A DNA stretch of 64,000 bases from Magnetococcales bacterium WMHbinv6 (GCA_002753135.1 PDZV01000019.1:1-64000); one strand, 5' to 3'; positions 51,172-55,177 are shown, counted from the first letter of the stretch. Notes: a model not told the origin generated them from the letters alone. Translations and numbers: made by a program.

Positions 51172-52233
51172 ATGGAATCGTTGCGTTTGACCAGTTTGAG
51201 TTGGGAAGAGTTGAACGCCCTGCTGGCCGAGTGGGGTGAACGCCCCTTTCGTGCCAAGCAGATCTGGTCCTGGTTGTATGTCAAACTGGCCCGCTCGCTG
51301 GAGGAGATGAGCGATGTCTCGGCGGCGTTGCGGGCACGTTTGTCGGCGGTGGCTCTCCCCTTGATGCCGCAGCCTCTCGCCCATCAGATTGCTGCCGATG
51401 GCACGGAAAAATGGTTGTTGGCTCTGTTGGATGGGGCGCAGATTGAGACGGTCTATATTCCCGACGTTGACCGGGGCACCTTGTGCGTCTCCTCGCAGGT
51501 GGGCTGTACTTTGAGCTGCAGTTTCTGTCATACCGGTACCCAGCGCCTGTTGCGCAATCTGCAGGCGGGGGAGATTGTCGAACAGGTCACCTTTGCCCGC
51601 GCCGAACTGGCGGCCCGTGGTCTCAAGGTGACCAACGTGGTGCTGATGGGCATGGGGGAGCCGTTGTACAACTATGACGCGGTGGTCAAAGCGGTGCGCA
51701 TACTGCTCAACGGCAGCGGTCTGGCGATCGGCACCCGCAAAATTACCCTCTCCACGGCGGGGGTGGTGCCCAAGCTGGTGCAGGTGGGTTGGGATTTGGG
51801 CATCAACATGGCCATCTCCCTGCACAGCGTGCGCGATGCGGTGCGCGACCAGTTGATTCCCCTCAACCGCAAACACAATCTGGCCGCCCTGCAAGAGGCC
51901 ATCCGCGCCTTTCCCCTCAAACATGGCCGGGCGATCACCTGGGAATATCTGCTGCTCAAAGGGGTCAACGATTCGCTGCAGGATGCCCGCGAACTGGTGC
52001 AGTTTATCGGCGACATTCCCTCCAAGGTCAACCTGATCACCTTCAACCCCTGGCCCGGGTGCCCCTACGAGCCCACCTCCCGGGAAAACACCCTGCGCTT
52101 TCAAGAGATCATCTGCCAGGCCAAAATTGTCACCGTCATCCGTGACAGCCGCGGTGCCGACATCGCCGCCGCCTGCGGGCAGTTGCGCTCGGAGTGTGGG
52201 GGGGGTGTCAGAGAGGTTGTGGCAGGGCGATGA
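51172..52233 (+). CDS. rlmN: Dual-specificity 23S rRNA / tRNA methyltransferase RlmN
   Basis: Radical-SAM methyltransferase, 353 residues, making 2-methyladenosine in 23S rRNA and some tRNAs. The cluster motif CTLSCSFCHTG near residue 110 and GMGEPLYNYD are diagnostic; the second cysteine is near the C-terminus in ADIAAACGQLRSE. The stop overlaps the ATPase start (ATGA), which is unusual, since rlmN normally precedes housekeeping genes. Confidence 0.97.
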   Translation: MESLRLTSLSWEELNALLAEWGERPFRAKQIWSWLYVKLARSLEEMSDVSAALRARLSAVALPLMPQPLAHQIAADGTEKWLLALLDGAQIETVYIPDVDRGTLCVSSQVGCTLSCSFCHTGTQRLLRNLQAGEIVEQVTFARAELAARGLKVTNVVLMGMGEPLYNYDAVVKAVRILLNGSGLAIGTRKITLSTAGVVPKLVQVGWDLGINMAISLHSVRDAVRDQLIPLNRKHNLAALQEAIRAFPLKHGRAITWEYLLLKGVNDSLQDARELVQFIGDIPSKVNLITFNPWPGCPYEPTSRENTLRFQEIICQAKIVTVIRDSRGADIAAACGQLRSECGGGVREVVAGR

Positions 52234-53423
52234 TTACCTCCCTGACCATTCGCAATTTCAAATCGATCAAGGAGATCAAGGATCTGCGCCTGGACCATTT
52301 CCATGTACTGGTTGGCCCGAATGGTAGCGGCAAATCCACTTTCTTGGATGCGTTGCAGTTTGTGCGTGATTGTGTCGAGACAGGCCCGAAAAAGGCGGTC
52401 GAAAAGCGGTCTATTCTTGATTTTAATGATTTGACCTATCGGCGTCAGGGGGGAGTGATTGAGTTTGAAATAGTAATGAATGGTGATGATTTTTCTAAAG
52501 AGTGGTATGGTAAATTTATTAGTTATTTATTGCGTGTTGGTTATAGTAATGTTGTAGGTGTTTGTTTTGAGTTTGAAAGATTAATTTCTATTAATAAGAT
52601 TAATCAGTCAATTGATGTTTTATTCGTTAGTGAGAATGATGATAAGGTTGTTGTAAACAATTTTGATAAAGATAGTGGGTTTCTTGTTCTTTATGGGAAT
52701 TCCTTTTTCAACTATATGCTCCATGGAAAAGGCGGTGATTTTGAGGAATCTATTGGTCTGGTCAAACAACTTTTAACCCAACATTTACGCTACCTCCAAC
52801 TGGACAGCATGGCCATGCGCCTTCCTTGTCCGGTCACCCAGGGCAGCGATCTGGCCCTGGATGGCAGCAATCTGGCGCGGGTGGTGGGGCGTTTGCGTGG
52901 CGAGACCGGGCGCAAGCCGGACAAACGCAGTCGGTTTAAACAGACGCCGATCCTCAAGGCGTGGACACGTCATCTGCAGTATGCTTTACCCGATTTGCAG
53001 GCCATCGGCTGGAATCGGCGCGAGGCGGATAATGCCGAATATCTGCTGCTGAAATATGCCGACGGTCTGGAATGCCCCTCCTGGTTGTTAAGCGATGGTA
53101 CCTTGCGCATGCTGGCCCTGACCCTGATTGCCTTTTTGCCACCAACCCCCGGTGTATACCTGATTGAAGAGCCGGAAAATGGTGTGCATCCCAAGGCGGT
53201 GGAGGTGATCATCCGCGCCTTGTCGACCGTGCCCAAGGCGCAGGTGTTTGTTGCGACCCACTCCCCTCTGGTGGTGCAACAGGTGGAACCGGCGCAACTG
53301 CTTTGCTTTACTACGGGAGAGGAGGGCACAGAGATCATCCCCGGTTCGCAACACCCTGTACTGCAGGGATGGGATGGCTCCCCGGATTTGGCAACCATCT
53401 TTGCCTCCGGCATTCTGGGATGA
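52230..53423 (+). CDS. AAA family (OLD/SMC-like) ATPase
   Basis: Cytoplasmic ABC-type ATPase of 397 residues. N-terminus SLTIRNFKSIKEI and Walker A LVGPNGSGKST near residue 30; in the C-terminal half LSDGTLRML (signature), YLIEEPENGVHPK (Walker B) and VATHSPLVVQQVEP (switch His) are all intact. Such ATPases often pair with a nuclease in anti-phage systems. Residues 80-180 are encoded by an AT-rich patch unlike the flanks. Start overlaps rlmN, stop overlaps the next gene (ATGA). Confidence 0.88.
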   Translation: MITSLTIRNFKSIKEIKDLRLDHFHVLVGPNGSGKSTFLDALQFVRDCVETGPKKAVEKRSILDFNDLTYRRQGGVIEFEIVMNGDDFSKEWYGKFISYLLRVGYSNVVGVCFEFERLISINKINQSIDVLFVSENDDKVVVNNFDKDSGFLVLYGNSFFNYMLHGKGGDFEESIGLVKQLLTQHLRYLQLDSMAMRLPCPVTQGSDLALDGSNLARVVGRLRGETGRKPDKRSRFKQTPILKAWTRHLQYALPDLQAIGWNRREADNAEYLLLKYADGLECPSWLLSDGTLRMLALTLIAFLPPTPGVYLIEEPENGVHPKAVEVIIRALSTVPKAQVFVATHSPLVVQQVEPAQLLCFTTGEEGTEIIPGSQHPVLQGWDGSPDLATIFASGILG

Positions 53424-54037
53424 GAGAGCTTCTGGTGTTGACCGCCGATACCGACGCCCAGGCGGTCATGCAGGTGGTGCTGCAGGAGCGCTATCAGGCT
53501 ATCGGTCTCAACAAGGCCGTCGATGCCGAAGTGGATCGTTATCACGGACGCGATGCCGGGCTGGTCAAAGAAGGGACTGGTTTGCTCCGTTTGCGCAAGA
53601 AAGCGTTCCAACGGGTCATCCTGCTCTGGGATCATCACGGTTCTGGGAAAACAGACCCCGGGCAAGTGCAACAGCAGTTGAGCCAACAATTAAGCAACGA
53701 TAGCTGGAGTGGCAACCATTTGGCCCAGGCCATCGTCCCGGAGTTGGAGGAGTGGTTGTGGCATAGCCCGGAAGCAATCCGCAAATATTTGGCGATCAAA
53801 GACGCCACCTTACAGCAATGGCAAAACTGTTTTGCCAACCAACAGAAACGTACAGTCGACGAGTGTCAACAACAGCTACCCAAAGAGCTGTTTTTCTACT
53901 GTATGCAACAAAAAGAGAACCGTCATCCTCGACCGGAGGATTATCGAGAGATTGCCCGCAAAGCCAGCCTGAAGGCGTGGCAGAATAGTGACAGTTTTCG
54001 GGCAATCATCACGCAACTCAAGGCGTGGTTTCTCTGA
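53420..54037 (+). CDS. Putative TOPRIM-like partner of the ATPase
   Basis: Protein of 205 residues. It opens with a beta strand and acidic turn MRELLVLTADTDA, has VILLWDHHGSGKT near residue 75, and later AIVPELEEWLW. An acidic start, a D-x-H-G turn after a strand, and a PELExW helix resemble TOPRIM-fold or DUF4276-like proteins that follow AAA ATPases. The resemblance is by eye and the usual TOPRIM glutamate is not clear. Overlaps both neighbours by four bases or fewer. Confidence 0.55.
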   Translation: MRELLVLTADTDAQAVMQVVLQERYQAIGLNKAVDAEVDRYHGRDAGLVKEGTGLLRLRKKAFQRVILLWDHHGSGKTDPGQVQQQLSQQLSNDSWSGNHLAQAIVPELEEWLWHSPEAIRKYLAIKDATLQQWQNCFANQQKRTVDECQQQLPKELFFYCMQQKENRHPRPEDYREIARKASLKAWQNSDSFRAIITQLKAWFL

Positions 54038-54681
54038 TGACTCGCGCAGTCTGGCGGCCCAAGGCGGTGTTGCAGGGGGTGCAGTTGCACTGGCAGGGAG
54101 ATGTGGCCCTCTGGTTGTTGCAACCGGCGCAGGCGGATGATCTGGCGGTGCTGGGTGTGGCCGAGCGAGAGGCTTTGCGTGCTGCCATGGCACTCTTACG
54201 TGCCTGCCTGCAATGGGGGCCGCAGGAGGGGTTGCAGAGAGTCACAGAGAGGGCTGCCGCGCTGTTTGCCCCCTTGCATCAGGGGGCGACGGCGACCATC
54301 ACGCTCTGGCTGGATGGAGAAGGGGTCTCGGCCACTCACGCCCCTTATCTGTTCTGCTACAGCATGACCATCGCACCGGATGAGGCGGGCACTCCTGCCC
54401 TGCAGCAAGAGTCGTTACGGCGTTACGGCAAAGCGTGGTTGCAGGACGAGGCGTTGTTGCACTTTCCCGCCGATGTGCAGCCGCAGGTGGTGCTGGAAAA
54501 GGGCAGCGAGCTGTACTACGACTGTTTTCTCAAAGAGGGGTCCTGTCGGGGAGAGTGCGGGCGTTTTGACTCTTTCTGGTTCGGGCGGCAGCAATCGACC
54601 CTGTATCATGTGCCGCAACCACGGGATCGTTATCCCACCGCCCACGCGGTCAGGGAGTTTTTGTTGAGTTGGATCGGCTGA
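54037..54681 (+). CDS. Unknown protein, third gene of the ATPase module
   Basis: Protein of 214 residues with no family I recognise. Start ATG at 54037 shares one base with the preceding stop (TGATG), so it is likely translationally coupled. The N-terminal half is helical and Ala/Leu-rich; a notable C-terminal stretch is KEGSCRGECGRFDSFWFGR with two cysteines. No signal peptide or membrane helix. Its last 32 bases overlap the convergent dciA gene. Confidence 0.7.
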   Translation: MTRAVWRPKAVLQGVQLHWQGDVALWLLQPAQADDLAVLGVAEREALRAAMALLRACLQWGPQEGLQRVTERAAALFAPLHQGATATITLWLDGEGVSATHAPYLFCYSMTIAPDEAGTPALQQESLRRYGKAWLQDEALLHFPADVQPQVVLEKGSELYYDCFLKEGSCRGECGRFDSFWFGRQQSTLYHVPQPRDRYPTAHAVREFLLSWIG

Positions 54682-55177
54682 TCGGGTCGGTGCCGTTGCG
54701 TTTCAAGGTGAGGTAGGTCAGCAGCAGACGGTGCAAGGTGGCGCGCAGTTCTGGATCCGTGACCTGCTGCAACCAAGCGTCAGCCTGCCGCAGATCGTCG
54801 GCATGCGGGGGTGGCATGGGGATTGGTTCCGCCGCCGCTTTGTTGACACCGGGGTTATGCAGGCGCAGACTCTCCTGGCGAAAGCGCAGGGAACGGACGG
54901 TTTTGTCCGGGAGTCGTTGCTGAATTTTGTGCAACAGCTCTTCCTGCATCAGTTGCAACTGTTGCTGCCAGACCGGCGAATCGACGCGAATGGTCAACTG
55001 GCCGTTGGCCAGGCTGACCGGTTCCGAATGTTCGGCGATGCGGCTGCCCACGGCCAGAGACCAGTCACGGTAGAGCTGCATCCCCTTGCCACGGGGCTGC
55101 TCCAAAAGGTGACCGGCAACCTTTTGCACGAGGGTTGCCATCGATAACAGTGGGTATTTGGCGGCAGGCTGCTTCAT
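54650..55177 (-). CDS. dciA: DciA (DUF721) replicative helicase loader family protein
   Basis: Protein of 175 residues in the DUF721 family; DciA loads or operates DnaB in bacteria that lack DnaC. The KH-like core QLYRDWSLAVGSRIAEHSEPVSLANGQLTIRVDSPVWQQQLQLM is typical. C-terminal 75 residues are variable, ending near Ser/Thr. Divergent from the membrane-protein gene; overlaps the unknown gene at its 3-prime end. Confidence 0.85.
   Translation of the reverse strand: MKQPAAKYPLLSMATLVQKVAGHLLEQPRGKGMQLYRDWSLAVGSRIAEHSEPVSLANGQLTIRVDSPVWQQQLQLMQEELLHKIQQRLPDKTVRSLRFRQESLRLHNPGVNKAAAEPIPMPPPHADDLRQADAWLQQVTDPELRATLHRLLLTYLTLKRNGTDPISRSNSTKTP

Follow-up and report, generated by a model that had tools for sequence, protein, structure and literature searches.

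We describe a three-gene module in which an ABC-type ATPase appears to have been split into two genes. The window, a 64,000-nucleotide stretch of the Magnetococcales bacterium WMHbinv6 genome (GCA_002753135.1, PDZV01000019.1:1-64000), carries directly behind rlmN a MAD3-like ATPase (P1), a MAD4-like small partner (P2), and a third gene (P3) that alignment shows to encode one half of a MAD3 ATPase in degenerate form. In the two genomes where P3 was found, P1 has lost the domain that P3 retains. We judge it about evenly poised whether these genes form a PARIS/MADS-like guard-and-effector pair whose ATPase is split into a motor, P1, and a second piece, P3, acting in trans. The pair itself is of an already known kind, MAD3-MAD4 or PARIS-like; the split ATPase is what is new.

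Three overlapping genes behind rlmN

P1, P2, and P3 are real, tightly coupled open reading frames on the plus strand, and their run begins inside the stop codon of rlmN (51172..52233, plus strand; TGA at 52231-52233). P1 (52230..53423; 397 aa) starts with the ATG at 52230 and its stop codon ends at 53423, P2 (53420..54037; 205 aa) extends from an ATG at 53420 to a stop ending at 54037, and P3 (54037..54681; 214 aa) from an ATG at 54037 to a stop ending at 54681. The rlmN/P1 and P1/P2 junctions are both ATGA, a 4-base overlap, and the P2/P3 junction is TGATG, a 1-base overlap, in line with the 1- to 4-base overlaps described when this DNA was read from its sequence alone (here, the sequence-only reading). 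The end of P3 overlaps by 32 bp a convergent gene on the minus strand (54650..55177), which we take to be DUF721/dciA-like. The neighbors of the locus are ndk, rlmN, DUF721/dciA, a membrane protein gene, and rsmA.

The order rlmN-P1-P2-P3-dciA recurs at the same place in "Ca. Magnetaquicoccus inordinatus" UR-1 (genome G020), where the orthologues of the three proteins are 54 to 59% identical to those of the window. Because the orthologues keep both order and place, the three-gene arrangement is more than chance. Between the two genomes, dN/dS could be estimated for P1 and P3 and is well below 1 for both, with values that are rough because synonymous sites are near saturation; for P2, these sites are saturated.

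P1, the full ATPase

P1 is an AAA_21/SMC-type ATPase (Pfam AAA_21, E = 1.4e-30). The sequence-only reading had called it an intact SMC/OLD-like ATPase, and its motifs bear this out: P1 has a Walker A (GPNGSGKST, 52314..52340), an ABC signature-like motif (LLSDGTLR, 53085..53108; S290-R295 are invariant in unsplit MAD3), and a Walker B (VYLIEEPENG, 53154..53183; E315-G320 are likewise invariant), all on the plus strand, so that by sequence it is intact as an OLD/SMC-type ABC ATPase. Its nearest named relative is MAD3 of the anti-phage system MADS (methylation-associated defense system; NCBIfam NF047739), matched at 338.9 bits, below the cut-off of 420. PADLOC matched P1 to HEC-01A (the best, at 1.9e-42), to AriA, whose model aligns through the ATPase domain, and to mad3.

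The middle domain of P1, codons 81 to 178 (52470..52763, plus strand), has decayed, and its odd composition had escaped the sequence-only reading. This segment is 30% G+C (GC3 of 0.22) compared with 56% for the window, which places it in the lowest 0.13% of 294-bp stretches, and the low-G+C region has sharp edges. The P1 middle of UR-1 is also shortened, to a 57-codon AT-rich remnant with a GC3 of 0.11, and dN/dS for the P1 middle between the two genomes is ~0.86. A sharply bounded, AT-rich segment within a protein whose N terminus and C-lobe are still conserved might point to a domain swap, in which foreign sequence replaced the middle and conferred a new specificity, leaving P3 as an independent extra receptor. 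We consider this very improbable, as a weak positional likeness to the ordinary middle domain persists in P1 (GVCFEFERL and SFFNYMLHG) and the mere 57 codons left in UR-1 fit decay better.

P2, the small partner

The nearest named relative of P2 is MAD4 (NCBIfam NF047734), whose model spans P2 residues 2 to 204 and scores 130 bits, below the cut-off of 160; identity to canonical MAD4 is ~24 to 26%. Judged from these alignments, P2 is MAD4-like. Thirteen residues (D45, D71, G76, W96, P107, E108, E110, W112, W114, P154, K155, F193, and W203) are kept in 44/44 P2 homologues. PADLOC returned weak matches to HEC-01B (0.0025) and mad4. There is also a distant likeness to DUF4276, seen with Pfam (E = 0.004; 17.8 bits, below the cut-off of 30.2) and with hhalign, where the alignment was collinear (P = 5.7e-4) but had a probability of only 30%. 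The EGxTE motif, which served to pick the DUF4276 members in this alignment, is absent from P2.

The AF2 model of P2 (pLDDT of 94.5) has an alpha/beta core and a helical tail, and the acidic residues D10, D71, E108, and E110 lie at predicted strand ends, in agreement with the acidic strand-turns reported in the sequence-only reading. That reading had called the protein TOPRIM-like, an identity that found no support: Foldseek searches of the PDB with the model yielded no hit at E ≤ 0.001, a PDB sequence search gave none, and the DUF4276 likeness is weak. P2 also had no match to AriB/DUF4435, and these searches did not recover the TOPRIM fold with catalytic E...DxD that is required of a PARIS/OLD-pair partner. 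The strand-end acidic residues are at best suggestive of TOPRIM, and the label is a guess. We predict that P2 is an effector, probably a nuclease.

P3, the third gene

No family in the Pfam, PADLOC, or NCBIfam profiles matched P3, and the sequence-only reading had left it as an unrecognized protein that would make the module a distinct variant. The variant is distinct indeed; the protein is recognizable as one half, now degenerate, of the ATPase type seen in P1. P3 aligns with an internal part of full-length MAD3 proteins in the related genomes G022, G024, G025, and G031, and its residues 50 to 213 correspond to residues 41 to 198 of the G022 protein (E = 6e-21). It is collinear with the N-terminal half of MAD3, its Walker A is gone, and it ends where the C-lobe would start. 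Based on these alignments, P3 is homologous to MAD3 and is not an ATPase, and its candidacy as an unknown fold or a nuclease was rejected. The AF2 model (pLDDT of 81.7) had Rad50/SMC N-lobes as its best plausible matches, none of them significant, and even this weak likeness is not independent, as the alignment behind the model included MAD3 rows.

P3 comprises an N-lobe remnant without Walker A (54037..54291) and a retained middle domain (54292..54678), both on the plus strand, with dN/dS values of 0.30 and 0.20, respectively, and an overall value of 0.25 between the window and UR-1. Could P3 be a decaying, functionless relic of a MAD3 duplication, next to a P1 middle that is merely fast-evolving? 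It is truncated and without Walker A, it sits on a long tree branch (2.3 changes per site, with its placement among MAD3 not fixed), and fragments of MAD3 exist elsewhere, in G042 and G044. This explanation is nonetheless improbable. The P3 frame is open in both genomes, its dN/dS is near that of dciA (0.20), differences at the three codon positions are 0.34/0.28/0.51, residues 160 to 214 are almost identical between the two genomes, and GC3 is 0.74, similar to rlmN. By these sequence measures, P3 is under purifying selection.

The retained middle domain also contains a conserved cysteine cluster, DCFLKEGxCxGECGRFD. Cysteines C163, C170, and C174, as well as C107, are common to the window and UR-1 and absent from unsplit MAD3. 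The cluster (54517-54588, residues 161 to 184) could possibly be a metal site gained after the split.

Complementary loss between P1 and P3

From 11 unsplit MAD3 proteins, we defined 17 invariant residues in the N-terminal region, 19 in the middle domain, and 72 in the C-lobe. P1 of the window keeps 17/17 of the N-terminal invariants and 69/72 of those in the C-lobe, against 3/17 and 0/72 for P3, whereas in the middle domain the relation is reversed, with 5/19 left in P1 and 15/19 in P3. UR-1 shows the same pattern: 16/17 versus 5/17 in the N-terminal region, 3/19 versus 15/19 in the middle, and 66/72 versus 0/72 in the C-lobe for P1 and P3, respectively. The loss of invariants from P1 is confined to the middle domain (Fisher P = 6e-11 in the window and 2e-10 in UR-1).

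A decayed P1 middle is seen in exactly the genomes that carry P3; as P3 was found only in these two genomes of one genus, they probably reflect one evolutionary event, and the association is unreplicated. At the rlmN-MAD3-MAD4 loci without P3 (G022 and G025), the MAD3 middle is intact. The P3 of UR-1, 55% identical to that of the window, is the only other free-standing copy found, and 398 genomes drawn from the phylum yielded no further P3. In an Acidobacteria MAD3 (locus L041) that is not accompanied by P3, the middle domain is shortened, and because of this case the MAD3 middle domain may be dispensable.

Dead paralogues are often dominant-negative partners. P3, which keeps the surface used by unsplit MAD3 while its catalysis is lost and which is translationally coupled to P2, might then be a regulatory decoy or immunity-like inhibitor that binds P1 or P2, restraining the effector or baiting a phage trigger, instead of a component that sensing requires. 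We hold this to be rather unlikely, since a decoy or inhibitor alone leaves the loss of the P1 middle in both P3 genomes unexplained.

Distribution and neighborhoods of MAD3-MAD4 pairs

The rlmN site holds a MAD3-MAD4 pair in the genome of the window, UR-1, G022, and G025. Among relatives, G021, whose rlmN is 92% identical to that of the window, lacks MAD3 and any long open reading frame in the 479 bp that follow rlmN up to the contig end (L093 1-479), and G023 has a different gene after rlmN. Elsewhere in the class, copies in G025 and G028 that exceed the MAD4 cut-off lie in canonical MADS loci; the others belong to a divergent short group or are partial. Short N-terminal fragments of MAD3, likely remnants, were seen in other genomes of the order at G042:C11:103773-104099 (open frame of 124 aa) and G044:C27:52425-52688 (open frame of 99 aa).

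Several phyla have short MAD3-MAD4 pairs that are not part of MADS. A genome-wide scan found them in Stygiobacter, Rhodospirillaceae, Bryobacterales, Thiodictyon, Acetobacteraceae, Spirochaetes, Acidobacteria, and Methyloversatilis; a Chthonomonadaceae metagenome-assembled genome (MAG) had a MAD4-like gene alone, with no pair. In the Rhodospirillaceae MAG (L034 1046-2905), MAD3 is frameshifted near the C-lobe, and the pair is apparently broken. In the Thiodictyon MAG, the end of a 925-aa open reading frame lying upstream overlaps the pair, and pglZ comes after the pair; in the Spirochaetes MAG, the pair lies between pglX-type fragments and brxHI/pglZ-like genes; and in Methyloversatilis, it stands behind pglX fragments. 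Judged by gene content, these three are methylation-based, BREX-like defense loci. Where pairs adjoin pglX, brxHI, and pglZ (loci L040, L037, and L042), the loci are BREX-like with a MAD3-MAD4 insert. According to a 2026 survey, OLD-ABC/nuclease modules are frequent backup effectors recruited to BREX loci (PMC12839542).

No match to the BREX protein PglZ was found in the window's own genome. This genome has N6-methylases, and because these occur in most genomes, no partner restriction system could be singled out. Viral contigs were searched together with phages for P3 and together with plasmids for P2, and none was found.

The link to phage defense that we infer for the module comes from the matches to the MAD3 and MAD4 models and from relatives beside pglX, brxHI, and pglZ. 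Alternatively, P1-P2-P3 could be a housekeeping or repair ATPase pair linked to rlmN. The locus sits between housekeeping genes in Magnetaquicoccaceae, and a cell-cycle role is reported for some archaeal OLD ATPases (PMC12796447). We give this little credence, given the MAD3/MAD4 homology, the relatives embedded in BREX-like loci, the different sites used among relatives, and the patchy distribution, with a MAD4-like gene in 10/48 genomes of the class. The anti-phage connection made in the sequence-only reading is therefore kept, with MAD3/MAD4 of MADS, and not PARIS or Gabija, as the nearest named kin. Two outcomes had been named there as counting against it, the absence of a nuclease or TOPRIM fold and the absence of any association with defense islands. 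At the level of PDB and Foldseek searches, no TOPRIM fold was found; an association with defense is present, because relatives sit in BREX-like loci.

Comparison with known systems

As in the MAD3-MAD4 portion of MADS, the ATPase gene directly precedes that of the small partner and their frames overlap; the profile matches are strong, and P1 and P2 have the full-length homology and ordered adjacency that define a pair of the MAD3/MAD4 superfamily. Unlike MADS, both fall below the curated cut-offs and an extra gene, P3, is present. No methylase, HsdS-like gene, or further MAD gene was found beside P1-P2-P3, and at the same-locus orthologue L029, MAD3 was the sole canonical MADS protein matched. 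Membership in a complete eight-gene MADS was rejected on account of the missed cut-offs and the absent MADS genes. The closest homologues outside the class are the short pairs described above (mostly 45 to 49% identity for P1 and ~32 to 43% for P2), which differ from the window locus in that their MAD3 is unsplit, its middle is mostly intact, and P3 is missing.

The module is also like PARIS (AriA/AriB) in having an ABC ATPase and a separate small effector, for which we propose the same logic, and unlike it in that P2 has no AriB/DUF4435 match and no TOPRIM structure match. HEC-01, a candidate system in PADLOC, and ATPase-DUF4276 pairs are a further point of reference, as HEC-01A is the best PADLOC match of P1, P2 has weak likeness to HEC-01B and DUF4276, and DUF4276 partners adjoin related ATPases in the same genomes. 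The window's genome has a separate ATPase-DUF4276 pair (G000:C24:117181-119074). To our knowledge, neither a half-ATPase subunit for PARIS nor a third gene of the P3 kind for HEC-01 or ATPase-DUF4276 pairs has been described.

A putative split motor and sensor

All function that we assign to the three genes is predicted. In the reading we prefer, that of a guard-and-effector pair with a split ATPase, a duplicate of MAD3 would have become P3, losing Walker A and the entire C-lobe and keeping the middle (insertion) domain, and P1 would have kept the motor and lost the middle domain, a case of complementary degeneration. P3 would most likely bind P1 and supply in trans the missing domain, presumably a surface for recognizing a trigger or partner, so that P3 would be a dead, probably sensing, subunit. 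P1 would act as an ATP-driven scaffold holding the effector P2, probably a nuclease, which would be freed or switched on once infection is sensed. This downstream mechanism is borrowed by analogy from PARIS, in which AriA sequesters AriB until a viral trigger protein binds (PMC11455837).

A stronger form of this proposal, to which we assign a little less than an even chance, is that an active motor works with a dead half-ATPase in trans as an exchangeable sensor or adaptor, which would be a third, obligate subunit. We know of no such subunit for pairs of the OLD, PARIS, or MAD3 type.

The MAD3-MAD4 pair emerges as a free-standing module outside MADS, set within BREX-like loci in some genomes and forming an island linked to rlmN in others. 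The ATPase of ABC/OLD-type defense pairs, PARIS among them, serves as motor and sensor alike; in P1 and P3, motor and sensing seem to have been parted onto two genes. If so, sensing could be mapped by gene deletion and by swaps of P3 between hosts.
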